Shown here: positions 12,091 through 23,663 of the stretch, piece by piece | Layout: each line of letters starts with the position of its first letter | Numbering within the stretch: the stretch's first letter is position 1 | Assembly (NCBI RefSeq): GCF_001422405.1 | Contig: NZ_LMMV01000001.1 | Span: forward strand, 621,275-685,274 | Length of the DNA stretch: 64,000 nucleotides | Source of the DNA: Pseudorhodoferax sp. Leaf267 | GTDB taxonomy: Bacteria > Pseudomonadota > Gammaproteobacteria > Burkholderiales > Burkholderiaceae_C | Reading direction: 5' to 3' | Position numbers and translations under genes: made by a program | Notes under the pieces: generated by a model | Seen by the model: only the letters and a program-made list of their open reading frames with translations | What the model was told of the DNA's origin: nothing | Databases searched by the model: none

Positions 12091-13062
12091 TTACCGCGGC
12101 GCTGCAGCTTGCGCCCGCGCCCTCAGCGCCACATCCGGATAGTTCGCGAACACGCCATCCATCCCCCAATTCAGATGCTTGCGCACTTCCGGCTCGCCTT
12201 GCGCCGGACGGCCCTCGGCAAACGTGTAGCCATGCACCGTGAGCCCGGCGGCATGCGCCATCTCGATGAAGCTGCGCGACATGCCCTCGCCGCGGATGCT
12301 CACGCCCACACCCTGGGCGTAGCCGGCGATGCGCTGCAGGTCCATCGCCAGCAGGCGGTTGGCCGAGCCGTTCAGCAGCACGAGCTTGAAGTTCAACCCC
12401 ATGGCGGCCTGGCGGCGCTGCAGGCTGCGGATGGTGTCGGCGTCGAAGGACTGGATGAACACCTTGTCGGTGCCCACGTAGCCGCTGGCCGACAGCACGG
12501 TCAGGATCTGCGTGGCCAGGCGGGGGCCGGGCTGCTTGGCCTCGGGGTACAGGCCGATGGCGCGCGAGCCGTTGGCTTCCAGCCGGCGCACGAGCGCGAT
12601 GATTTCTTCCAGCGTGGGCACGCGCAGCGGGTGGGGCGTGCTGGGCGTGAAGCCGGGGTAGCTGGTCTGCGCCGTGCCCTGCGGGCGCATGCTCAGCGAG
12701 CGGATTTCTTCGAGCGAGAAGTCGGACACCAGGTAGCCGCCGTTGCGCGCAGCGAACTTGGCGGCGACGTCGGTGGTGCGCTCCAGCGAGAGGTCGTGCA
12801 TGGCGACGAGCTGGCCGTCGCGCGTGAGCTGCAGATCGGGCTCGACGTAGTCGGCGCCCATGCGCACGGCCAGCTCGTAGCCGGCCAACGTGTGCTCGGG
12901 CAGGTAGCCCGAGGCGCCGCGGTGCGCGATGACCAGTGGGGGCTTGCCATCCAGCGTGGGCAGGCGATCGGCCGCGGCCGACGCGAGGGAACCGAGGGCC
13001 AGTGCCGACGCGAGGGCGGCCTGTCGGATGCGGGGGAGCGAGATCGAAGGCATGGCTACCAC
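12091..13062 (-). CDS. glpQ: Glycerophosphodiester phosphodiesterase, exported
   Basis: A 323-residue GDPD, which hydrolyses glycerophosphodiesters to glycerol 3-phosphate and an alcohol in the periplasm. A signal peptide (hydrophobic run through ALASALALGSLASAAA) precedes the TIM-barrel. The substrate motif VIAHRGASGYLPEHT and the metal acids in VEPDLQLTRDGQLVAMHD are intact. ATG at 13062 or 13053 may be the start. It begins 18 bases after the stop of the AtzH-like gene, so it may be the last gene of the catabolic operon. It is clearly a paralogue of the gene at 24572-25636 but lacks that copy's PEP-CTERM tail. The symbol is by family only. Confidence 0.88.
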   Translation of the reverse strand: MVAMPSISLPRIRQAALASALALGSLASAAADRLPTLDGKPPLVIAHRGASGYLPEHTLAGYELAVRMGADYVEPDLQLTRDGQLVAMHDLSLERTTDVAAKFAARNGGYLVSDFSLEEIRSLSMRPQGTAQTSYPGFTPSTPHPLRVPTLEEIIALVRRLEANGSRAIGLYPEAKQPGPRLATQILTVLSASGYVGTDKVFIQSFDADTIRSLQRRQAAMGLNFKLVLLNGSANRLLAMDLQRIAGYAQGVGVSIRGEGMSRSFIEMAHAAGLTVHGYTFAEGRPAQGEPEVRKHLNWGMDGVFANYPDVALRARAQAAAPR

Positions 13063-13080
13063 TGTAGCCGGCCCGGCGGC

Positions 13081-13470
13081 TCAGCTCATCAGGCTCACGT
13101 GGGCGGCCACGACGCGCCAGCCCTCGGCCAGGCGCACCCAGGTCTGGCTCTGGCGGCCGATGCGTTCGCTGCCGGTGCGGCGGAACTCGATGTTGGCCAC
13201 GGCCAGGTCGCGCCCATAGCTGGTGAGCACGCGGGCCGTGACCTCGCGCTCCAGGTTCACGGCCGGGCGGCCCTGGCGGAAGGCCTGGATCGCGGCAAAG
13301 CCGTACAGATTCTCGCCCGCGCCGTAGCGCAACGTGTGCGGCGAGTCGAAGAACAGCTTGTCGAGCGTGGCGACATCGTTGGTCACGAGGGCCTGCTCGT
13401 AGGCGTCGAACTGGGCCTGGACTTCGGCCAGCACGTCGGGCAGGTTGATCTGGTCGGCTTGGATGGTCAT
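13081..13470 (-). CDS. AtzH/HpxZ-like protein (DUF3225, SnoaL-like fold)
   Basis: A 129-residue cystatin/SnoaL-type fold protein of the DUF3225 family. Family features visible are [39 protein letters not shown] and the closing [12 protein letters not shown]. Known members are AtzH of the cyanuric acid pathway, reported as a 1,3-dicarboxyurea decarboxylase, and HpxZ of oxalurate catabolism. Both sit beside amidase-signature hydrolases and act on carboxylated ureas. Here it is in one operon with an AtzD/barbiturase-like enzyme and an amidase, which supports a role with a ureido or carboxy-urea intermediate. It begins four bases before the permease stop. The exact reaction is inferred. Confidence 0.85.
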
Positions 13471-13474
13471 GGTG

Positions 13475-14239
13475 TTACTTTCCGCCCCAGTGGACGAAGC
13501 GGCGCTCGGCCAGCAAAAAAACGAGATTCATCACGTAGCCGAGCAGGCCGGCCGCGAAGATCGAAGCGTACATGTCGGGCATGTCGAAGATGGTCTGCGC
13601 GTTCATGATGCGCTGGCCCAGGCCGTCGGTGGAGCCGATGAACATCTCGGCCACGATCACGATGACCAGCGCGATGGACACGCCCGAGCGCATGCCCACG
13701 AAGACTTGCGGCATGGATTCGAGCAGCGTCACGTCGGTCAGCACGCGCCAGCTCGGCGCGCCCATGACCTTTGCCGCCAGCTGGCGCTGCTTGCGCGCGC
13801 TCATCACGCCATAGGCCACGTTGAAGAGGATGGCCAGCGCCGCGCCGAAGGCGGCCACGGCGATCTTGGTCTGCTCGCCCACGCCGAAGAGCACCAGGAA
13901 CAGCGGGAACATGGCCGAGGCCGGCGTGGAGCGGAAGAAGTCGATCGCGAACTCGATGCCGGCGTAGATCTTCTCGTTGCTGCCCAGCAGCACGCCCAGC
14001 GGCACGGCGATCGCGGTGGCGATGCCGAACGACAGCACGGTGCGCACGATGGTCTTCTCGAAGTCGGCCCACAGCGTGCCCTGGAACAGGCCGTTCCAGA
14101 ACGCCTGCAGCGTCTCCAGCGGCGAGGGCAGCAACACCGGGTCGACGGCCTTGGTCGTGTGCGCGAAGGCCCACAGGCCGATGAGCGCGGCAATGCCCCA
14201 CAGCGGGCGCAGCTTGCCCAGTACATCGTTGAACGTCAT
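13475..14239 (-). CDS. ABC transporter permease, SsuC/TauC type
   Basis: A 254-residue inner-membrane permease with about six hydrophobic helices and the BPD-transport signature region near [23 protein letters not shown] (EAA loop, read with the flanking residues). Permeases of this type import nitrate, taurine, sulfonates, pyrimidine precursors and riboflavin. ATG at 14239 overlaps the ATPase stop as ATGA (14236-14239). With the ATPase and binding protein upstream it completes an importer inside the catabolic operon. The substrate is probably the N-heterocycle that the operon degrades (inferred). Confidence 0.9.
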
Positions 14240-15066
14240 TTGCGCACCTCGCGTTGGAAGATCGCCAGCGCCTCGGACTTCACCTCGATGAAGCGCGGCG
14301 TGACGGTGGTGTCGGCCGTGCGCGGGCGCGGCGCGTCGAACAGCAGGTTGTCGGCCACTTGCGTGGGCCGCTTGGTCAGCAGCAGCACGTGGTCGGCCAG
14401 CAGCACGGCCTCGTCCAGGTCGTGCGAGACCAGCATGGTGGTGACCTTGCGCTCGACCAGCACCTTCTGCAGCCGCTCGCGCAGGAACATCACCATCTCG
14501 TAGTCCAGCGCCGAGAAGGGCTCGTCGAGAAACAGCACCTCCGGGTCCACCACCAGCGCCCGCATGATGGAGACCATCTGCTGCTGGCCGCCCGACATCT
14601 GGTAGGGGTAGCGGTTGAGGTCCAGCTTCACGTCGAAGGCCTGCATGAGCCGGTCGAGCCGCTCGGCCTGCTCGCCCTTGGAGAGCTTGAGGTACTGCAG
14701 CGGGTAGCGGATGTTGTCGATGGCGCGCATCCACGGGAACACGGCCTCGCGGTAGTTCTGGAACACGTAGCCGATGCGCGTCTCGCGGGCTTCCTTGCCC
14801 TCGAACAGGATCTGCCCGCCGTCGTAAGGCAGGATGCCCGCGATCATGTTGATCAGCGTGCTCTTGCCGCAGCCGTTGGGGCCGAACACCGAGGTGATCC
14901 TGCCGTGCGGGATGTCCAGGTCGAAGTTCTCGTAGACGGCCGCGCCCGCGAAGCGCTTGGTCAGCCCGCGGATCGTGATGTGCGTGCCGGCCGGGAACCA
15001 GCGGCCGCCGGCGGCGGCGGGCGCGGGCGTGGCGGCCATGGGGGTGTTGGAGGGCATCGCGCGCAT
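14236..15066 (-). CDS. ABC transporter ATPase, SsuB/TauB type
   Basis: A 276-residue ATPase powering the importer. It has Walker A GPNGCGKST, Q-loop VFQNYREAVFPW, signature MSGGQQQMVSIMRALV, Walker B VLFLDEPFSALD and the H-loop in VSHDLDEAVLLAD. The signature is SGGQQQ rather than SGGQRQ, and the third Q is a minor oddity. ATG at 15066 shares one base with the stop of the binding-protein gene (TGATG). A second ATG at 15057 is possible. It ends in an ATGA overlap with the permease. It acts at the cytoplasmic face of the inner membrane. Confidence 0.9.
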   Translation of the reverse strand: MRAMPSNTPMAATPAPAAAGGRWFPAGTHITIRGLTKRFAGAAVYENFDLDIPHGRITSVFGPNGCGKSTLINMIAGILPYDGGQILFEGKEARETRIGYVFQNYREAVFPWMRAIDNIRYPLQYLKLSKGEQAERLDRLMQAFDVKLDLNRYPYQMSGGQQQMVSIMRALVVDPEVLFLDEPFSALDYEMVMFLRERLQKVLVERKVTTMLVSHDLDEAVLLADHVLLLTKRPTQVADNLLFDAPRPRTADTTVTPRFIEVKSEALAIFQREVRK

Positions 15067-16049
15067 CACAAGGCCTTGACCAGGGCCTTGCCGTCGACCT
15101 TGTCCTTGACCACGCCGAGCTGCTGGCCGATGTCCAGGAATTTCTGGAAGTCGTCGGTGTCGGCCGGCTTCATGTCGGCGGCCATCACGATGCGCGGCAA
15201 CGGCACGGAGGCGGCCAGCTCGGGCGGCACCTTCATGCCGGCGATGAGATAGCCGCGCGTGCTGCTGTCGCTCTGCGCGGCCTGCACGCCGCGCGCCCAC
15301 ACGGCGGCGAAGCGCTTGGCCACGTCGGGCCTGTCGGCGATGAACTTGTCCGACAGCACGGCGCCGGCGGCGAAGGCCGAGGCGTCCTTGCGGCCCAGCA
15401 GGTGGGTGGCGATGACGCCGGCCTCGACGCGGCGGCCGATCTTCTGCGCTACCATCACCGTGGCGGCCGGCTCCAGCGTGTAGCCGCCGTCGAAGTTGCC
15501 GGACTGCAGCGCACCCAGGTGCACGCCGATCTGCTGTTCCTGGATCGTGAAGTCCTTGCCCTCGGTGAGGCCCACCTTCTTGAGCACCGCGCGCGCCGCG
15601 CCGATGTTGGCCGGGCCGGGGGCCGAGAACAGCTTGAACCCGTTCTTGAAGTCGGCGAGGGTCTTGGCGGGGCTGCCGGCCTTGACGACGAACTGCTCGA
15701 TCACGTACTGGCTGTTCTGCCCGTTCAGCGAGATGTACTTGAGCGTGCCGGGTCGGCGCGATTCCATGTTGGCGCCTTCCAGCGTGACGAGGTTGGCCGC
15801 GCCGTCGATGCCATTGGAGATCAGCGCCTGCACGGTCAGCGGGTGGCTGGTCATGGGGATCTCTTCGACCTCCAGGTTCGCGTCCTTGAACCAGCCGCGG
15901 TTTTGCGCGATGTAGAAGGGCAGCGCGGCACTGGAGGGGAACACGCCAAACTTGATCTTGTCGGCCGCGTGGGCGGCCAGCGGCAACGCAAGCGTGGAGG
16001 CGGCCAGGGCCAGGGCGGCGGTGCGGCGCAGGAAGTCAGAGCGTTGCAT
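15066..16049 (-). CDS. ABC transporter substrate-binding protein (SsuA/NMT1-like)
   Basis: A 327-residue periplasmic binding protein. The leader MQRSDFLRRTAALALAAS has a paired-arginine n-region and is followed by an AHA cleavage site, so Sec or Tat export is possible. The mature part begins DKIKFGVFPSSAALPFYIAQ, typical of SsuA/TauA/NMT1 folds. Such proteins bind nitrate, sulfonates, thiamine precursors and, in some cyanurate and pyrimidine clusters, N-heterocycles. It overlaps the VOC gene stop by 14 bases and the ATPase start by one. The ligand is not readable from sequence. Confidence 0.9.
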   Translation of the reverse strand: MQRSDFLRRTAALALAASTLALPLAAHAADKIKFGVFPSSAALPFYIAQNRGWFKDANLEVEEIPMTSHPLTVQALISNGIDGAANLVTLEGANMESRRPGTLKYISLNGQNSQYVIEQFVVKAGSPAKTLADFKNGFKLFSAPGPANIGAARAVLKKVGLTEGKDFTIQEQQIGVHLGALQSGNFDGGYTLEPAATVMVAQKIGRRVEAGVIATHLLGRKDASAFAAGAVLSDKFIADRPDVAKRFAAVWARGVQAAQSDSSTRGYLIAGMKVPPELAASVPLPRIVMAADMKPADTDDFQKFLDIGQQLGVVKDKVDGKALVKAL

Positions 16050-16557
16050 GCGGGGGTTCTCCGGAGAAGGTGGGGTAATGGTCGAAGTCGAAAAACGAGT
16101 GGCCGGCGCGGTAGACGCGGCCGGGCGACATGTCGGGCGGGGCGCCGGGCTCCACGGCGCCCTCGAAGGTCAGCTCCAGCTGCACGCCGCTGGGGTCGTA
16201 GACGAACAGCTGCCACAGCGTGGTGCCGGGCACGAGGAACTCGCGCCAATCCAGGCCTGCGTCGCGAAAGCGCCGCACGTAGGCGTGGTAGCCGCTGCAG
16301 GCCAGAGAGACGTGGTCGATGGCGGCCGTGCCCTGGGGCACGGTGGCCGAGCCTGCCAGCGCGGGGCCGCCGGCATAGACATGGATGATGGCCTGGCCGC
16401 CCGGTTGGCCACAGGCCAGCCAGGCGCCGGGGTAGCCGAAGTCGGGGCGCGGCACCTCGCGCAGGCCGATCACGCCGGTCCAGAAGGCGCGCGTGCGGGC
16501 CAGGTCGGCGGTCTTGATGGCCAGGTGGAAGAGGCCGTGGGTGAGGGCTTGGGTCAT
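16036..16557 (-). CDS. VOC-family (glyoxalase/dioxygenase fold) protein
   Basis: A 173-residue protein with two beta-alpha-beta-beta-beta modules. Likely metal ligands are the His in GLFHLAIKT near the start, the His in AIDHVSLACSGYH, and the Glu in VQLELTFEG. This is the pattern of metal-dependent VOC enzymes (glyoxalases, extradiol dioxygenases, some ring isomerases). It lies between the flavin monooxygenase and the binding protein with overlaps on both sides (ATGA upstream, 14 bases downstream), so it belongs to the pathway. Its reaction is unknown; isomerisation or cleavage of a hydroxylated intermediate would fit (inference). Confidence 0.85.
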   Translation of the reverse strand: MTQALTHGLFHLAIKTADLARTRAFWTGVIGLREVPRPDFGYPGAWLACGQPGGQAIIHVYAGGPALAGSATVPQGTAAIDHVSLACSGYHAYVRRFRDAGLDWREFLVPGTTLWQLFVYDPSGVQLELTFEGAVEPGAPPDMSPGRVYRAGHSFFDFDHYPTFSGEPPHATL

Positions 16558-17855
16558 GGGAAGTTGCGGCCGTGCGGGCCCTCACCCCAGCCCTCTTCCA
16601 GGGGGAGAGGGAGTGAAGAGGCGCGCGTGGGATTTGCTCCCTCGCCCCTCTGGGGAGAGGGTTGGGGTGAGGGGAGCGGCACATCGCGGAACAGCGTCGC
16701 CAGATCCGCCAGAAACGGCGCCTCGGTCTTCCACCGCGTCCCCGCCACCGGGTCGGCGCCGGCCAGCATGGTGTCGGTGGCCTGCACGGACAGTGCCATC
16801 ACGAAGCGGATGCGCTCGCGGCGCGCGGCGTCGATGGCTTGCAGCCAGCCGCGTGCGGCCAGCCGGCCCGCAGCGACTTCCGCCTCGATCAAGAGCGCCG
16901 CCGCGCACGCGTCCTCCATCGCCTGCGTCGCGCCCTGGCCCAGCGTGGGGGCCATGCCGTGGGCGCTGTCGCCCAGGTACAGCACGTCGGCCTGCGGCTC
17001 GGCGAACAGCACGTCGGACTCCTGCATGCGCGCCCAATGCGCCTCGGCCAGGTTGGCGCACAGCGCATCGAGCAGCCACGCCATCTGCGCGCTGGGCTGG
17101 CCGCTGGCGGGCGTGTAGGTGGCGCGCATGCTGGCCTCGGTCTTCCACTCGTCCTTCAATGGCGCACCGGGCTCCACGGGGTAGGTCGCGGCGATGTAGA
17201 CCTGGCCGGGTGGCACGCGGAAGGCCAGCAGCCGGTGCGCGCCGTTGAACCACTGGCCGTAGTCGTCGATGAGGCCGGCGCTGGTGTCGGGCACCAGCGT
17301 GCGCAGGATGGCCACGCCGATGTGGCGTGGCTCGGGCAGCCCAGAGAACGCGGCGCGCGTGGCGGAGTAGCGGCCGTCGGCGCCGATCAAGAGGTCGATG
17401 CCGTCCAGCGTGATGGTCTGGCCGTCCTGTGTGTAGCGCACGCAGGTCTTGCCGGCCTGGGTGCAGGGGCCGATGTGCTCGACCTGGCAGCCGTAGCGGA
17501 TGGCAGTGCCCGCGCCTTCGCGCAGCACGCGGTACAGCTCCGACCAGCGGATGCGGATGCCCGGGTTGTCGGCCACCTGCGTGAGCGGCAGGTCCATCAG
17601 CACCGTGCCGTCGGCCATCGCCACATGCCAGTGCTTCCAGGGCAGGCTGGCGGCTTCGACGCTGGCGGCAAGCGCCGGGTCGCAGCGGCGCAGCGCCTTG
17701 ATGGCGTTGGGGCCGACGTTCAGGCCCGTGCCCGATTCCGAATGGTCTTCGGGGCCGACGCGTTCCAGGCAATGGACGTTCAGGCCGGGCAGGCGGGACA
17801 GGCGGCGCGCCAGGATGGCGCCGGCCACGCCGGCGCCGATGATCACGATCTTCAT
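16554..17855 (-). CDS. FAD-dependent monooxygenase (class A), HpxO/salicylate-hydroxylase-like
   Basis: A 433-residue flavoprotein hydroxylase. It has GAGVAG at residues 7-12 for FAD/ADP binding, a DG motif in IGADGRYSATR and a GD motif in LGDSAHGMAPTLGQGATQAMEDA (split by family-typical residues). Related enzymes hydroxylate aromatic or N-heterocyclic rings (HpxO acts on urate). The start overlaps the amidase stop as ATGA. Residues about 395-426 are encoded by an inverted GC-rich repeat (16579-16673) giving a low-complexity tail rich in Pro, Gly and Glu; the catalytic core is complete before it. A ring-hydroxylating step before ring opening is inferred. Confidence 0.88.
   Translation of the reverse strand: MKIVIIGAGVAGAILARRLSRLPGLNVHCLERVGPEDHSESGTGLNVGPNAIKALRRCDPALAASVEAASLPWKHWHVAMADGTVLMDLPLTQVADNPGIRIRWSELYRVLREGAGTAIRYGCQVEHIGPCTQAGKTCVRYTQDGQTITLDGIDLLIGADGRYSATRAAFSGLPEPRHIGVAILRTLVPDTSAGLIDDYGQWFNGAHRLLAFRVPPGQVYIAATYPVEPGAPLKDEWKTEASMRATYTPASGQPSAQMAWLLDALCANLAEAHWARMQESDVLFAEPQADVLYLGDSAHGMAPTLGQGATQAMEDACAAALLIEAEVAAGRLAARGWLQAIDAARRERIRFVMALSVQATDTMLAGADPVAGTRWKTEAPFLADLATLFRDVPLPSPQPSPQRGEGANPTRASSLPLPLEEGWGEGPHGRNFP
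16579..16673. repeat. Inverted GC-rich dispersed repeat inside the monooxygenase 3' end
   Basis: Two arms, at about 16579-16613 and 16637-16673, are near-perfect inverted copies. Each has the form CCCTCACCCCA, CCCTC, CC, GGGAGAGGG when read inward. Elements of this type recur between genes in many Burkholderiales and other Proteobacteria. Here the element lies within a coding sequence and keeps the frame open to an ATGA junction with the next gene. It can form a strong RNA hairpin between the two cistrons and may lower expression of downstream genes. Confidence 0.75.
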
Positions 17856-19255
17856 GCGGGGAGACTTTCCATCTGGGGCAACACCGGCCAGCGCCATGGA
17901 AGGCCCTGGTGCTGCAAAAAGGATTGGCCGAGCGCACACAGCAGCGCGTCGCTGCTGCGCGGGCCCAGCAGTTGCAGGCCGATGGGCAGGCCGTCGGCCT
18001 GGCCGGCCGGCAGGGCCAGCGCGGGCAGGCCGGCGCCGTTGGCGAAGGCCGTGAACACGGCGTGGCCGCGTGCGTCCACGGCCTGGCCGTCGATCTCGGT
18101 GGGGTGGCTCTGGTCGGCGGCCCAGGGCATGGCGGCGCAGGCCGGCGTGAGCACCACATCGTGGCCGGCGAACACGCGGTCCATGGCCTCGCTCAGTGTG
18201 CGCTGCACGGCCTGGGCCTCGAACAGATCGGTGGCGCGCCAGGCGCGGCCGGCCAGCAGCATGCTGCCCAGGGCCGGCGTGAGCTGCGCCTCGCGGCCGC
18301 GCAGCGGCTCCAGCACGGCGGCCAGCCCGGTGCTGCTGAGCACCGGCCAGGCGCGGCGGTTGAAGTCCTCCACCTCGGCCGGGGCTTCGGTCACGTCCAC
18401 GCGATGGCCCATGGCGCGCAGCCGCTCGGCGGCGGCGTCGACGCGCTGCGCGATCCGGGCGTCGACGGCGCTCGCGCCGATGCGGCGCCAGTGGGCGATG
18501 CGCAGGGGGCGCTGGACGGCGGGCAGGGCGTGCGGCATGGCAGGCGCGATGACTTGCAGGATGCGTACCAGGTCGTCCAGGCTGCGCGCGATGGGGCCGA
18601 TCACCTCCAGGCCCGGCAGCATCTCGGGCAGGCCGTCGGCGCGCGGCACCACGCCCCGGCCGGGCTTGAAGCCGACCAGGCCGGTGTAGGCACAGGGCCG
18701 GCGGATGGAGCCGCCGCCATCGGTCGCCAGCGCCAGCGGGCCGATGCCGGCTGCCACCGCGGCCACGGCGCCGCCGCTGGAGCCGCCCGGCGTGCGCGCC
18801 AGGTCCCAGGGGTTGCGCGTGACGCCGAACAGCGCGTTGTCGGTATAGCCCTGCAGCGTGAACTCGGGCACGTTGGTCTTGCCGAACAGCACGGCGCCGG
18901 CCGCGCGCAGGCGCGCCACGGGCGATTCGTCGCGGGCCGGGCGGTGCTCCGCGAACAGCCGGCTGCCCCAGCGGCAGGGCAGGCCACGCTGGGGGATGTT
19001 GTCCTTCACGCTGATGGGCACGCCGTCCAGTGGCGACAGCGGTGTGCCGCGCTGCCAGCGCTCGGCGCTGGCCTGGGCGGCCGCGTGGGCGGCGGCATCG
19101 TCGCGGGCGATCACGGCGTTGAGGGCCGGGTTCACGGCGTGCAGGCGCGCCAGCACGCTGGCCAGTGCCTGGACGGGCGAAAGGCTGCCGTCGGCATAGC
19201 CGGCGACCAGATCGCCGGCCAGCAGCTGCCAGGGCTCCTTGACGTGCTCAGACAT
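17852..19255 (-). CDS. Amidase-signature hydrolase (candidate ureidomalonase/biuret-type amidase)
   Basis: A 467-residue amidase-signature enzyme with a complete Ser-cisSer-Lys triad: Lys84 in ISVKDN, the GGSSGG serine at about 159-160, and nucleophile Ser183 in [10 protein letters not shown]. Such enzymes cleave amides; relatives near AtzD/barbiturase genes are ureidomalonase, 1-carboxybiuret hydrolase (AtzE) and allophanate hydrolase (AtzF). The chain has only the amidase domain, without the extra C-terminal domain of AtzF, and no small AtzG-like subunit gene is seen. It overlaps the ring-opening enzyme by 8 bases and the monooxygenase by 4. It probably takes the ring-opened ureide as substrate (inferred). 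Confidence 0.88.
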
Positions 19256-20393
19256 GGGCGATCACCGCGACAAGGCCGCCACCGTCCGGCCCCTGGTGCT
19301 CGGCACCGCCGGACACGAAGATGCGCGGGTCGCCCAGCACGCCGGCCACCAGCGCGCCCACGGCGCCGCGGATGTGGCGCTGGGCGTTGATGTCGGTGTC
19401 GTCGAGCATGGTGTGGCGCGCGCCGCGCACCTGGCCGCGCCGGTCGGGCTCGCACTTGACGAACACGGCGGCGATGCGGCTGGCGTCCTCGGCGGCCAGC
19501 TGGGGGCGGGCCCGCAGGCCCACGGCGGACAGCGCCGCGCCCACGGCGGCGATGTCCAGCGCGTCGCGCATCGGCGCGCAGCCCATGCGCAGCGGGCCCT
19601 GCCAGCGCCGGCTGTGGCCCAGCACGATGACCTCGTTGCACTCGACCTCCACGCCGCAGGACACGCTGGCGCGCGACGAGAAGTGCTCGAAGTCGCGCAG
19701 CAACGCTGGCTCCAGCGCCGCATCGTCGGGCAGCTCGCCCAGTGCGATGGCGGTGCCGAAAGCGCCGGCCGCGCGTGCATAGGCCATGGAGCGGCCAGGG
19801 TCCGCCGTCAGCACCGCATGGCCTTCGGCGGCTGCGGCCTGGGCGCGCGCCGATGTGACGCACGGGGTCTTGAGCTGCACGAAGGCCACGTCCTCGGCGC
19901 GCGCGATGCCGGCGTCGCGCATGGCGGCGCGCACGGCGTCGGCCACTGCGGCGACCTGCGCCCAGCGGCCGACCTCGTGCGCCGGGGTGTGCGCGCTCAT
20001 GGCGGTGCCGATGGCCAGCGCTGCCTCGCCCGTGGCCGGCTCCGCGCCCTCGGGCCGGCCGCTGCGCGCGAAGACCACGTAGTGCGGGCTCAGCACGCCC
20101 TCGGTGCCGCCGGACAGCACGCACGGCAGTTCGCGCACCAGCGCCTCGGCCGGGCGGCCCAGGCGCGCGGCCAGCAGGCCCATCAGCGACTGCGTGAAGT
20201 AGCCGCGCGTGAAGTCGTTGACGCCGCCGTTGCCCTCGGTCTTGCCGATGACGGCCACGATGTCGCGGGCCTGCAGCGCGCCAGCGTCCAGCAGCGCGGC
20301 CAGCGCCGAGAGGTCGCCCGGGTGGGCCATGGCCAGGCGCCGCACCTGGAGCTGCGGGCGGGTGTCGAGGGGGGTGGAGTTGGTGGTGTGCAT
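19248..20393 (-). CDS. Ring-opening amidohydrolase, cyanuric acid hydrolase/barbiturase family
   Basis: A 381-residue member of the small AtzD/TrzD/barbiturase family, a fold with internal threefold symmetry found in few enzymes. All three Lys-Ser pairs are visible: Lys51 (IGKTEGNG) with Ser94 (LSGGTEG), Lys175 (VQLKTP) with Ser239/240 (SSRAS), and Lys313 (FVKCE) with Ser361 (VSGGAEHQGPDGGG). The RHTMLDDTDIN motif is also kept. Known members open cyanuric acid to 1-carboxybiuret or barbiturate to ureidomalonate; motif reading alone does not separate them. It is the first gene of the operon. There is no strong ribosome site before ATG at 20393. Confidence 0.92.
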   Translation of the reverse strand: MHTTNSTPLDTRPQLQVRRLAMAHPGDLSALAALLDAGALQARDIVAVIGKTEGNGGVNDFTRGYFTQSLMGLLAARLGRPAEALVRELPCVLSGGTEGVLSPHYVVFARSGRPEGAEPATGEAALAIGTAMSAHTPAHEVGRWAQVAAVADAVRAAMRDAGIARAEDVAFVQLKTPCVTSARAQAAAAEGHAVLTADPGRSMAYARAAGAFGTAIALGELPDDAALEPALLRDFEHFSSRASVSCGVEVECNEVIVLGHSRRWQGPLRMGCAPMRDALDIAAVGAALSAVGLRARPQLAAEDASRIAAVFVKCEPDRRGQVRGARHTMLDDTDINAQRHIRGAVGALVAGVLGDPRIFVSGGAEHQGPDGGGLVAVIAHV

Positions 20394-20484
20394 GGTGCTG
20401 CGGTGCAACAGAAACCGCAGTATGGGCAGCGCGTGCGCAAACCACCAGCGCATAGTTTCGACCGCACCGAGCGCAATTTGTGTG

Positions 20485-20508
20485 CACTGGAACGGCGCCG
20501 CTCCAGTG
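20485..20508. promoter_or_regulatory. 24-bp palindrome in the divergent promoter region
   Basis: Arms CACTGGAACGGC and GCCGCTCCAGTG are complementary at 11 of 12 positions with no spacer. The site lies 92 bases upstream of the ring-opening amidohydrolase start and 81 bases upstream of the MHYT-GGDEF-EAL start. That is where an operator for a dimeric regulator would sit. No regulator gene adjoins the operon, so the binding protein is unknown. Confidence 0.55.
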
Positions 20509-20588
20509 GCGCCGACATGCTTGCGCCACATTCGCACGGGCGCACGCCCGGAAAATCCAACCCAAGACCAGCCCACCGGACCGACCCC

Positions 20589-22709
20589 ATGCCAGCAGCC
20601 TTCGTTGACGTGACCCACAACCCCTGGGGGGTGTTGCTCTCGTTCCTGATCGCCAGCTTCGCGGCCTACGTCGCGCTCGACCTGGCGAGCCGGGTGCGAT
20701 CGAAGGACCGCACCATCGCCAGGGCCTGGTGGATCGGCGGCTCGTTGGCGATGGGCACGGGCATCTGGTCCATGCACTTCGTCGGCATGCTGGCGGCGTC
20801 CCTGCCGTTCGCCGTAGGCTACGGCTATGCGATCACGGCGCTGTCCTGGGTGGCAGCGGTGGCGGTGTCGGGGGTGGGCCTGCATGTGGCCAGCCGTGCG
20901 CACTTGAGCCTGGGCAGGCTGGTCCGTGGCTCGGCGGTGATGGGTGCGGGCATCTGCGTCATGCACTACACCGGCATGGCGTCGCTGGAGCTTGCGCCCG
21001 GCATCCAGTGGAACTGGCTGCTGGTGGCGGCATCGGCCGCCATCGCGGTCGTCGCCTCGGCGGTCGCGCTGCTGATCTTCTTCGCGCTGCGCCGCTACGG
21101 CGGCAGCATGCAGCGCAACCTGCAGGTGCTGGCCGCACTGGTCATGGGCGCGGCCATCTGCGGCATGCACTACACCGGCATGGCCGCGGCCGAATTCTCC
21201 GTGGGCAGCGTCTGCATGAGCGTGGACCAGCTGCGCGGCGACCACCTGGGCCTGCTGGTGGCCGTGGCCACGACCGTGCTGCTGAGCCTGACCATGTTCA
21301 GCTCGCTGCTGGACGCCCGCATGCAGAGCAAGGCCGAACTGCTGGCGGAATCGCTCAAGAGCGCCAACACCGAGCTGCAGCAGATCGCCTTTCGCGACGC
21401 GCTGACCGGCCTGCCGAACCGCCTGCTGCTGGACGACCGCGTGAACTCGGCCGTCGAACGCTGCCGCCGCGACCGCGTCAGCATGGCCATGCTGTTCATC
21501 GACCTGGACGGCTTCAAGCCCATCAACGACTCCTTCGGACACCGCGTGGGCGACGCCGTGCTGAAGGAAGTCGGCCGGCGCCTGGCCACGCAGCTGCGCG
21601 CGGCCGACACCGCGGCGCGCGTGGGCGGCGACGAATTCGTGCTGCTGCTGGAGGGCAGCGCCGACTCGGCCGCCATCGCGCAGACGGCGCAGCGCCTGAT
21701 CGACCTGGTCAGCGCCGCCATGCACATCGATGGCCACGAGTTGCGGCTGTCGTGCTCGATCGGGATCGCGCTGTTCCCGTCGGACGGCCCGCAGAGTGAC
21801 CTCATGGCGCATGCCGACGCGGCCATGTACGCGGCCAAGCGCGCGGGCGGTGCGTCCTACGCCTTCTTCGAAGCGCACATGAATGCCGGCGTGCGCGAGC
21901 AGATCGAGCTGCAGCGCGACCTGCGCTCGGCGGTGGAGCGCAACGAGCTCGAGCTGTACTACCAACCCAAGGTCAGCGCCGGGCGCACCGTCATCACCGG
22001 CGCCGAGGCACTGGTGCGCTGGCGCCATCCGGCGCGCGGCATGGTGAGCCCGGCCGTGTTCATCCCCGTGGCCGAGCGCTTCGGCCTGATCAACGCCATC
22101 GGCGGCTGGGTCATCGAGGAGGCCTGCCGCCAGGTGGCCGACTGGCTGGCCCAGGGCCTGCGCGTGCGCGTGGCGATCAACCTGTCGGTGCACCAGCTGC
22201 GCCAGGACGACTTCGCGCGGCGCGTGGCCGCCGTCATCGAGCGCCGCCGCATCGACCCCGCGCTGCTGACCTTCGAGATCACGGAGTCCGTGGCGATGGA
22301 AGATGCCGAGGGCACGCTGCGCGCGTTCGAGGAGCTGAGCCGCATCGGCGTGCGCCTGTCGATCGACGACTTCGGCACGGGCTATTCCAGCCTGTCCTAC
22401 CTGCGACGGCTGCGGGTAGGCGAGCTCAAGATCGACAGGTCGTTCGTGCAGGACCTGGAGTCCAGCGCCGATGCGCGCGCCATCGTCGAGGCCGTGATCC
22501 GCCTGGCCCATGTGCTGGGGCTCAAGGTCGTCGCCGAAGGGGTGGAGACGGTCGGCCAGCAGGAGGTGCTGACGCAGCTGCAGTGCGACGACTTGCAGGG
22601 CTTCCTGTTCGCCCGGCCCATGGCTGCGGATGCGATGGCCCGGTGGGCCGAGGACAACCGGGCCCCGGGCCAGGTGCCCTTCGGCCTGTCGTCGTTCGTG
22701 CCGACCTGA
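20589..22709 (+). CDS. MHYT-GGDEF-EAL cyclic-di-GMP signalling protein
   Basis: A 706-residue membrane protein. The N-terminal part is an MHYT sensor of about seven helices with motifs MHFVGM, MHYTGM and MHYTGM, proposed to bind copper and sense a diatomic gas such as oxygen, CO or NO. Then come an intact GGDEF at residues 346-350 (diguanylate cyclase) and an EAL domain with EAL at 473-475 plus DDFGTGYSSLSYL (phosphodiesterase). Both output domains keep key motifs, so the net activity cannot be told. It is transcribed divergently from the ring-opening operon; the shared 195-base region holds the palindrome at 20485-20508. The C terminus ends normally. Confidence 0.93.
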   Translation: MPAAFVDVTHNPWGVLLSFLIASFAAYVALDLASRVRSKDRTIARAWWIGGSLAMGTGIWSMHFVGMLAASLPFAVGYGYAITALSWVAAVAVSGVGLHVASRAHLSLGRLVRGSAVMGAGICVMHYTGMASLELAPGIQWNWLLVAASAAIAVVASAVALLIFFALRRYGGSMQRNLQVLAALVMGAAICGMHYTGMAAAEFSVGSVCMSVDQLRGDHLGLLVAVATTVLLSLTMFSSLLDARMQSKAELLAESLKSANTELQQIAFRDALTGLPNRLLLDDRVNSAVERCRRDRVSMAMLFIDLDGFKPINDSFGHRVGDAVLKEVGRRLATQLRAADTAARVGGDEFVLLLEGSADSAAIAQTAQRLIDLVSAAMHIDGHELRLSCSIGIALFPSDGPQSDLMAHADAAMYAAKRAGGASYAFFEAHMNAGVREQIELQRDLRSAVERNELELYYQPKVSAGRTVITGAEALVRWRHPARGMVSPAVFIPVAERFGLINAIGGWVIEEACRQVADWLAQGLRVRVAINLSVHQLRQDDFARRVAAVIERRRIDPALLTFEITESVAMEDAEGTLRAFEELSRIGVRLSIDDFGTGYSSLSYLRRLRVGELKIDRSFVQDLESSADARAIVEAVIRLAHVLGLKVVAEGVETVGQQEVLTQLQCDDLQGFLFARPMAADAMARWAEDNRAPGQVPFGLSSFVPT

Positions 22710-22757: not shown

Positions 22758-23663
22758 TCAGTCCGGCAGCAGAGCCAGCCGGCCCACCAGCGTCTCCAGG
22801 AACGACAGGCCGGCGATCGGCAGCACCCGCCCCTCGCGCGTGGCCAGCACCAGCTGGCTCTGCGAGAACGCCGGGTCGCTGAGCGGGATGGAGCGCAGCT
22901 CGCCCAGCCGGGCCTCGCGCAGCGTGCCGATCTGGAACTGGAAGCTGATGGCGCCGGTCGCGCGCGTGAACTCCTTGAGCGTCTGCACCGAGCTGGCCTC
23001 CAGCGCCACCTGCAGCGTGAGCCGCGAGCGGGCCGTGACGGCGTCGATCAGCCGCCGGCTGCCGAAGGAGCGGTCGCCCAGCGCCACCGTGTGGTCCTGG
23101 CAGTCGGCCAGGCGCAGGCTGGCGCGGTCGGCCAGCGGGTGGTCGGGCCGCAGCATGGCGCACAGCGGCTGGGGCACGGCAGTGACGACGCGCAGGCTCT
23201 CCGAGGGCTGCGGGTCGTGCACCAGCACCAGGTCCACGTCGTCGGCCAGCAGCGCCTGCACGAGCTGCGCCGTGACGCCCGCGAGGACCTGGAACTGCAC
23301 GCCCGGGTGCGTCTGCTGGTAGTGGGCGATGGTGGCGGGCATCAGGTCGGTGGCCACCGACTCGGCGCAGCCCACGCGCACGGTGCCGCGCACCAGGCCG
23401 CGCAGCTGCTCGATCTGCGATTCGGCCGCACGCAGATCGGCCAGCGTGCGGCGCACGGCCGTCAGCAGCACCTCGCCCGCGGCGGTGAGCCGCACGCCGC
23501 GCGGCAGCCGCTCGAACAGCGGCGTGCCGATCTCCGATTCGATCTCCAGGATCTTGCGGTTCAGCGCGGTGGAGGCCACGTGCAGCTTGTCGGCGGCCTT
23601 GCGGATGGAGCCGGCGCGGGCCACCGCATCCAGGTAGACGAAGTGGCGGGGCGCATGCAGCAT
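22758..23663 (-). CDS. LysR-family transcriptional regulator
   Basis: A 301-residue LysR regulator: N-terminal winged HTH (FVYLDAVARAGSIRKAADKL, with VASTALNRKILEIE recognition region) and a C-terminal ligand-binding domain starting GTVRVGCAESVATDL. It lies 57 bases after the glutathione transferase-like gene on the same strand, so the two may be co-transcribed. The target is unknown. It is not adjacent to the ring-opening operon, which lacks its own regulator, so a link is possible but unsupported. Confidence 0.9.
   Translation of the reverse strand: MLHAPRHFVYLDAVARAGSIRKAADKLHVASTALNRKILEIESEIGTPLFERLPRGVRLTAAGEVLLTAVRRTLADLRAAESQIEQLRGLVRGTVRVGCAESVATDLMPATIAHYQQTHPGVQFQVLAGVTAQLVQALLADDVDLVLVHDPQPSESLRVVTAVPQPLCAMLRPDHPLADRASLRLADCQDHTVALGDRSFGSRRLIDAVTARSRLTLQVALEASSVQTLKEFTRATGAISFQFQIGTLREARLGELRSIPLSDPAFSQSQLVLATREGRVLPIAGLSFLETLVGRLALLPD

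Follow-up and report, generated by a model that had tools for sequence, protein, structure and literature searches.

A LysR-associated operon for a candidate N-heterocycle catabolic route, built on a ring-opening amidohydrolase with glutamine at position 321

Which ring is opened by a hydrolase of the cyanuric acid hydrolase/barbiturase family when a flavin monooxygenase, a VOC protein and an importer are encoded with it? The question is raised by a set of genes of Pseudorhodoferax sp. Leaf267, found on contig NZ_LMMV01000001.1 (positions 621,275-685,274; this whole stretch of 64,000 nt is called the window below, and coordinates refer to it). A first-pass annotation had read there seven overlapping minus-strand genes, for a ring-opening amidohydrolase (ROA), an amidase (AMD), a flavin monooxygenase (FMO), a VOC protein and an SsuABC-like importer, followed by an AtzH/HpxZ-like gene. 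This reading was borne out, all of these genes being open, with an ATG start and no internal stop. Our best explanation, held with moderate confidence, is that they form a catabolic operon, controlled by a LysR-type regulator, for a small N-heterocycle holding a cyclic ureide or imide, and that the product of the FMO is opened by the ROA; the substrate class, the order of the steps and every reaction are what we infer.

The genes follow each other closely on the minus strand. The ROA gene (19248..20393) overlaps by 8 nt the gene for the stand-alone, amidase-signature AMD (17852..19255; PF01425, 313.8 bits; GGSSGG signature), which itself overlaps by 4 nt that of the class A FAD monooxygenase (16554..17855; PF01494, FAD_binding_3, 42.2 bits). 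Overlaps of 4, 14, 1 and 4 nt then lead through the genes for the VOC/glyoxalase-fold protein (16036..16557; Glyoxalase family), the substrate-binding protein of the importer (SBP, NMT1/SsuA type, 15066..16049; NMT1 match) and its ATPase (14236..15066; PF00005, ABC_tran) to that of the permease (13475..14239; PF00528, BPD_transp_1), whose start was set from the sequence. The gene of the AtzH/HpxZ-like NTF2-fold protein (13081..13470; PF11533) comes 4 nt further on.

A ring opener outside the known signatures

The ROA matched PF09663 with 437.2 bits (cut-off 25) and is the sole match to this family in the 6.53 Mb genome. It keeps the three Ser-Lys dyads of the family and the equivalents of Arg54, Arg195 and Arg325. 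In the portion of Peat et al. covered (PMC3758960), the specificity signature of AtzD is Arg195, Thr321, Arg325, Gly345 and Gly346, that of barbiturase is Asn195, His321, Lys325, Val345 and Ser/Ala346, and Gln at 321 is given for none of the six groups. The window ROA has Arg, Gln, Arg, Gly and Gly at these positions: it departs from the AtzD signature at 321, the other four positions matching, and from the barbiturase signature at all five. By counting from Arg314 (equivalent to Arg325), position 321 of AtzD corresponds in the Azorhizobium enzyme to Thr310, the hydroxyl of which touches a water molecule that sits directly over the bound ring (PMC4051656, part of the text covered); from this position above the ring, a Gln at 321 would suit a substrate with an out-of-plane (sp3) group.

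The extent of this variation was assessed on a conservation sample for which genome contigs were scanned once for ROA and the best 80 of 565 loci (numbered with the prefix L) were kept. Residue 321 was Gln in 34 of them and Thr in 45, the gene not being called in the last one (L050). Placement in the AtzD/barbiturase tree, which had been proposed as a check on the first-pass annotation, gave a firm grouping. A quick tree of 108 sequences placed the 41 Gln rows (the 34, the window, L109-L112, L118 and L119) on one side of a branch with a Shimodaira-Hasegawa-like approximate likelihood ratio (SH-aLRT) support of 100; the nearest neighbours of the window ROA were those of Pseudacidovorax and Variovorax, from which a Comamonadaceae origin of the window is probable, and the second ROAs present at five loci (ROA2, with Glu at 321) formed a group of their own (SH-aLRT 100). 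In a more careful tree, made from 66 of the 108 rows and with the trait columns left out, the branch between the Gln rows on one side and the Thr and Glu rows on the other had 100/99 support; the long-branch L016 and L017 root inside the Gln rows, so that two changes are needed, but a single Gln clade was not rejected (approximately unbiased test, p 0.295). L016 and L017 are very divergent (35%): Ala and Phe replace two of their three dyad serines, Asp occupies positions 321 and 346, and they are perhaps not hydrolases of the ROA kind.

Three Bradyrhizobium genomes hold a Thr321 and a Gln321 ROA at the same time (L042/L095, L057/L152 and L064/L153), which argues for different substrates. By its signature, the window ROA is thus predicted to be neither a cyanurate hydrolase nor a barbiturase, and appears to belong to a separate subfamily tied to the FMO.

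Association with a monooxygenase and a VOC protein

The FMO was present in all 34 Gln321-ROA genomes, within the locus in 30 and elsewhere in the genome in four (L028, L029, L046 and L047). No FMO or VOC was found at 40% identity or above in any of the 45 Thr321 loci. When 20 of the 45 Thr321 genomes were searched whole, two held FMO and VOC, and in each of these a further locus was present, XdhF-XdhS-XdhL-ROA(Gln321)-FMO-VOC-AMD. The view that the ring opener and the monooxygenase belong together is therefore upheld, since among the 20 Thr321 genomes searched the FMO is found only in those that have a Gln321 locus as well.

The VOC gene follows the same pattern, with one gap. Among the 34 Gln321 genomes it was called in the locus in 22, found as a fragment at a contig end in L043 and elsewhere in the genome in six; at E 1e-15 it was absent from L037, L040, L044, L045 and L049, genomes whose completeness is not given. 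These five, the only ones of the 34 to lack VOC, are those with the second, Glu321 ROA (VOC was searched genome-wide, ROA2 recorded at loci only). Three further Gln321 genomes (L109, L110 and L112), without VOC in the stretch first taken, do hold it. ROA, FMO and VOC (or the second ROA), mostly also the importer, thus go together. In four of the five ROA2 genomes the first ROA (ROA1) falls into one and the same clade, and the exchange may represent just one or two events. No case of VOC alongside ROA2 was found, so the two may have one intermediate as their common substrate; with two ring openers in one operon, two rings could be opened in turn. The simple four-step route of the first-pass annotation (import, hydroxylation, opening, amidase), itself conjectural as to reaction order, leaves this exchange unexplained. 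A bolder proposal, which we put forward only tentatively, is that of a new Toblerone-fold system, in which the Gln321 ROA would open a non-planar cyclic ureide, hydroxylated by the flavin enzyme, for which no use as a bacterial growth substrate is described in the literature searched, and in which VOC would do the job of a Glu321 ring opener, i.e. would have a ring-opening or ring-rearranging activity.

VOC is among the most conserved proteins of the set (64-86% identity to that of the window in 19 relatives); His11, His59, His82 and Glu128 are invariant in these 19 and are candidate metal ligands. Its plasmid relatives reach at most 53.5% identity; a VOC of about 54% on a Terrarubrum plasmid lies beside genes annotated as creatininase, cytosine deaminase and nucleoside deaminase. 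For the FMO, no plasmid relative was found at 1e-40. An inverted repeat (CCCTCACCCCA...) lies inside the 3' end of the FMO gene (16579-16599 and 16653-16673) and lengthens the C-terminus of the protein, which has 433 aa where most relatives have about 400; at the place of this repeat, a different FMO tail is found in L018.

Gene order and distribution

The family is sporadic: of the 299 genomes of the taxonomic family, 13 have a PF09663 match (a short fragment in one case), and the ROA of the window is present in one of six genomes of the genus. A search for the same gene order, the first check proposed in the first-pass annotation, was positive. The order recurs in Pseudacidovorax, Variovorax (L036), Hydrogenophaga, Noviherbaspirillum and Pseudomonas profundi, and in Polaromonas without AtzH; because it is found in several genera, the operon is not a chance arrangement. 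The commonest order is LysR, ROA, AMD, FMO, VOC, SBP, ATPase, permease. L022, L024 and L041 are without AMD, and L019 is rearranged. In the 19 loci with a LysR gene, the latter is mostly directly upstream of ROA, with four genes between them in Pseudacidovorax. Counted within the locus, SBP was present in 24 of the 34 Gln321 loci, AMD in 25 and AtzH, which then comes last, in 11. VOC also occurs together with SBP, ATPase and permease away from ROA (L154-L157), or near importer genes (L159), which supports one unit even where the locus is split. This is a real operon, spread over many soil and water bacteria.

Pairs of FMO and ROA were also seen in L109, L110 and L112, the first of which has in addition a family III CoA-transferase and an MmgE/PrpD protein (by Pfam).

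Proposed route and alternative substrates

In the route that we propose, the SsuABC-like importer would bring the N-heterocycle in and, in some relatives, an XDH-type enzyme would first add an oxo group next to a ring nitrogen. The FMO would hydroxylate the ring, giving a trioxo, cyanurate- or barbiturate-like ring with an out-of-plane (sp3) hydroxyl or similar group. A second step would fall to the VOC protein, which might isomerise, hydrolyse or oxidise the intermediate, or, in five alphaproteobacteria, to the second ROA. The Gln321 ROA would open the ring at an amide bond and AMD would cleave the product; where present, the AtzH-like protein would remove a carboxyl group, and nitrogen would leave via urea or allophanate. 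The fold of SBP was tried as a clue to the ligand and was not decisive, PqqT, SsuA, TauA, nitrate and pyrimidine binders all being within about 2 Z units.

The best solved relatives of the FMO, in a profile search, were 6-hydroxynicotinate 3-monooxygenase (84 bits), 6pvf (79 bits; presumably PhqK), a salicylate hydroxylase (74 bits) and 3rp6 (61 bits; we take 3rp6-3rp8 to be HpxO), and so include hydroxylases acting on N-rings and aromatic acids. As to the neighbours, XDH-type molybdenum (Mo) hydroxylase genes lie inside the operon in L038, L039, L042, L152 and L153 (Bradyrhizobium included), beside ROA on the other strand in L048 and upstream in L049; an XDH-type large subunit is within 5 kb in L109, L110 and L112, and the small subunit is commoner in Gln321 than in Thr321 loci (7/34 versus 1/45). 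Outside the operon, the window genome encodes seven large subunits of the XDH family, none of them above 39% identity to the Bradyrhizobium one. In the Pseudacidovorax loci L018, L021 and L026, and in the like L119, a relative of the PuuE allantoinase and a PF01177 racemase are encoded between LysR and ROA. From the XDH-type genes, the PuuE-like and racemase genes, the neighbours of FMO and VOC and the context of the Terrarubrum plasmid VOC, we infer that the substrate is a cyclic ureide of purine, pyrimidine or pteridine type rather than a pyridine.

Several observations weigh against this interpretation. The Thr321 controls lean on Bradyrhizobium and its close kin, which supply 37 of the 45 loci and 15 of the 20 genomes. 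Matches to the large Mo-subunit (at least 28% identity) are not enriched, with 4/34 Gln321 versus 7/45 Thr321 loci. The tail of the operon, counted within loci only, is not constant, as seen from the AMD and AtzH figures above. Lastly, the gene-order search found the FMO profile at 10 places in 9 of 399 genomes: the window, four places beside a Gln321 ROA (L109-L112) and five (L113-L117) with a distant FMO (41-44%) and no ROA nearby. Three of the five have VOC (L113-L115; L113 and L114 also with PuuE-like and amidohydrolase genes), and L116 and L117 have a PuuE-like gene, accompanied in L117 by a ureidoglycolate-lyase-like gene. With three of these loci holding VOC and four an allantoinase-like gene, FMO and VOC may start from purine-type compounds.

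Such an origin is at the heart of a first alternative, a urate-like route, in which the FMO would be an HpxO-like hydroxylase acting on urate or on a methylated or otherwise altered urate, ROA would replace HIU hydrolase, and VOC or the second ROA the next enzyme. It would account for the HpxZ-like protein, which is above the cut-off of its model (NF033625, 202.9 bits versus 135), for the XDH-type genes of the Bradyrhizobium loci and for the PuuE-like and racemase genes of Pseudacidovorax, although the PuuE-like proteins score below cut-off (300-367 versus 424.6). A few kb downstream in L039 there are also a fused OHCU decarboxylase/HIU hydrolase and a urate oxidase, all over their cut-offs, and L114 has genes similar to the fused one; however, the standard urate pathway of L039 makes a second one redundant, unless it serves an analogue. 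Moreover, the FMO falls far short of the HpxO model (NF033623, 81.5 versus 500), and a fused bicycle should fit poorly in the ROA, whose tight three-carbonyl pocket is kept and whose Gln is larger than Thr. We consider this route unlikely.

The oxidative pyrimidine pathway, in which uracil or thymine is converted to barbiturate and the latter is degraded by barbiturase and ureidomalonase (the amidase), is a still more doubtful candidate. Barbiturase does belong to the ROA family and an XDH-type enzyme adjoins ROA and AMD in Bradyrhizobium, but the FMO would have to replace or supplement uracil dehydrogenase, none of which is encoded among the operon genes of the window, FMO and VOC are superfluous for plain barbiturate, and the barbiturase signature is missed throughout.

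The tail of the operon bears both on the proposed route and on the last alternative. The AtzH-like protein is identical to AtzH (6bjt) at 78 of 123 aligned positions (63%) and keeps Tyr22, Arg46, Arg63, Arg66 and Arg73; AtzH probably decarboxylates 1,3-dicarboxyurea (PMC6219798, part of the text covered). Away from the operon, the genome also has a gene for an allophanate hydrolase (747.7 bits, cut-off 511). AMD is below the cut-offs of both AtzE models (TIGR02715, 209.4 versus 425.75; NF006631, 211.7 versus 461), and no AtzG was found beside it within the operon, where the overlaps of ROA, AMD and FMO leave no room for one (AtzG was sought in the operon only). A cyanurate-forming route, in which the FMO would turn a 1,3,5-triazine into cyanurate (for example by decarboxylating hydroxylation of oxonate) ahead of an ordinary cyanuric acid hydrolase and an AtzE/AtzH-like tail, is improbable in spite of the resemblance to AtzH, of a ROA closer to the cyanurate hydrolases of the PDB (283-325 bits) than to barbiturase (260 bits) and of FMO relatives, 6-hydroxynicotinate 3-monooxygenase and salicylate hydroxylase, that are decarboxylating hydroxylases, for it gives no role to VOC and the second ROA, has in the operon neither an AtzE by cut-off nor an AtzG, and is at odds with the absence of FMO from all 45 Thr321 loci when characterised cyanurate hydrolases carry Thr.

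The LysR-type regulator and its putative operator

A LysR gene (22758..23663, minus strand; LysR_substrate and HTH_1) and a putative operator, GCACACAAATTGCGCTCGG (20467..20485, minus strand), 92 nt upstream of the ROA start, were overlooked in the first-pass annotation and count as parts of the unit. In 19 of the 80 loci, a match to this LysR (55-84% identity) lies upstream of ROA and is read in the same direction. The 7-mer GCACACA was found in all 20 upstream regions taken (the window and the 19 LysR loci), with full palindromes in L044 (GCACACAATTTGTGTGC) and L036 (GCACACAAAATGTGTGC). A matrix built from these 20 sites and run over 2.13 Mb of loci plus the window gave 32 matches, 28 of them upstream of ROA (some loci overlap or match on both strands). 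A held-out match was obtained in Noviherbaspirillum L035, 74 nt ahead of the ROA gene; the contig of this locus stops before any LysR gene could appear. No match was found in the 14 Gln321 loci without a LysR gene; against the link between regulator and operator, none was found in L118 either, despite a LysR of 58%. In the window genome the pattern is unique at up to 2 mismatches, and from this single match the LysR regulon may be this one operon.

Relation to known systems

The operon resembles atzDGEHF of Pseudomonas sp. ADP in the family of its ring opener (AtzD/TrzD, with the same Ser-Lys dyads and Arg) and in its order, with the ring opener first, an amidase next and an AtzH-like protein last; it differs by the Gln at 321, the lack of AtzG and AtzF, an amidase that is not AtzE by cut-off, and the addition of FMO, VOC, an importer, and its own LysR gene and operator. 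With barbiturase (Bar) it shares the family and reaction type and, in some relatives, an adjoining XDH-type enzyme, whereas the five specificity positions differ and the oxidative pyrimidine pathway has no place for FMO and VOC. The hpx urate/oxalurate systems, which comprise HpxO and HpxZ, also have a class A FMO, an HpxZ-like protein and, as in some relatives here, allantoinase- or racemase-like functions; unlike them, the present system has an FMO far from HpxO and a Toblerone-fold enzyme instead of HIU hydrolase to open the ring. Oxidation and hydrolytic opening of a pyrimidine-dione ring are also found in the lumichrome/riboflavin cluster of Nocardioides simplex (PMC12746152), but with a P450 and a different hydrolase, the 80-kDa LumH, and no Toblerone-fold enzyme in the portion of that text covered.

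The combination of genes, unrecognised in the first-pass annotation, stayed so: no published description turned up in the open-access literature, which lacks most subscription papers, and an earlier listing of the subfamily is possible, since the members of the ten clades of PMC4051656 are unnamed in the part covered. Thus, the fold and the gene families are known, and the subfamily, the gene set, the operator and the VOC/ROA2 exchange appear new as far as the literature search reaches. Earlier work describes the cyanurate hydrolases and barbiturases as a rare, minor family whose recent spread is put down to industrial cyanurate (PMC4051656 and PMC6557486, both covered in part). That the Gln321 subfamily occurs in several families of Proteobacteria, linked to an oxygenase, an importer and in many cases a regulator of its own, suggests that much of the enzyme family has a natural substrate. 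The subfamily also has a one-residue marker (Gln321) and an operator by which to recognise it, and the VOC/ROA2 exchange points to a new kind of VOC reaction.

Neighbouring genes and plasmid relatives

The first-pass annotation had allowed for a glycerophosphodiesterase (GDPD) as last gene of the operon. Its gene (12091..13062, minus strand; PF03009) is open, without internal stop, when read from GTG and lies 18 nt beyond that of the AtzH-like protein; no GDPD match was shown at the loci of the relatives, where the conserved unit is without it, and it was rejected as a member and retained as a mere neighbour. On the other side, a gene for an MHYT/GGDEF/EAL signalling protein (20570-22709, plus strand; family read from the sequence) stands between the LysR gene and ROA; this interruption on the other strand explains why the LysR gene had not been joined to the operon in the first-pass annotation. 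In Variovorax L036, a 40% relative of this signalling gene is immediately upstream of LysR. Composition gave no sign of a recent island (G+C of 0.67-0.77 over the operon and 0.66-0.75 in the flanks shown).

A ring-opening amidohydrolase match was present in 127 plasmid records, about 45 of them enterobacterial and several clinical, with 45% identity to the window ROA. On the Klebsiella plasmid L163 (6004-13104), the ROA is accompanied by a nucleobase symporter, DUF2877, FdrA, DUF1116 and a carbamate kinase; FdrA and the DUFs are, we assume, linked to a transcarbamoylase, and this neighbourhood suggests that the product of ring opening is transcarbamoylated and not simply hydrolysed.

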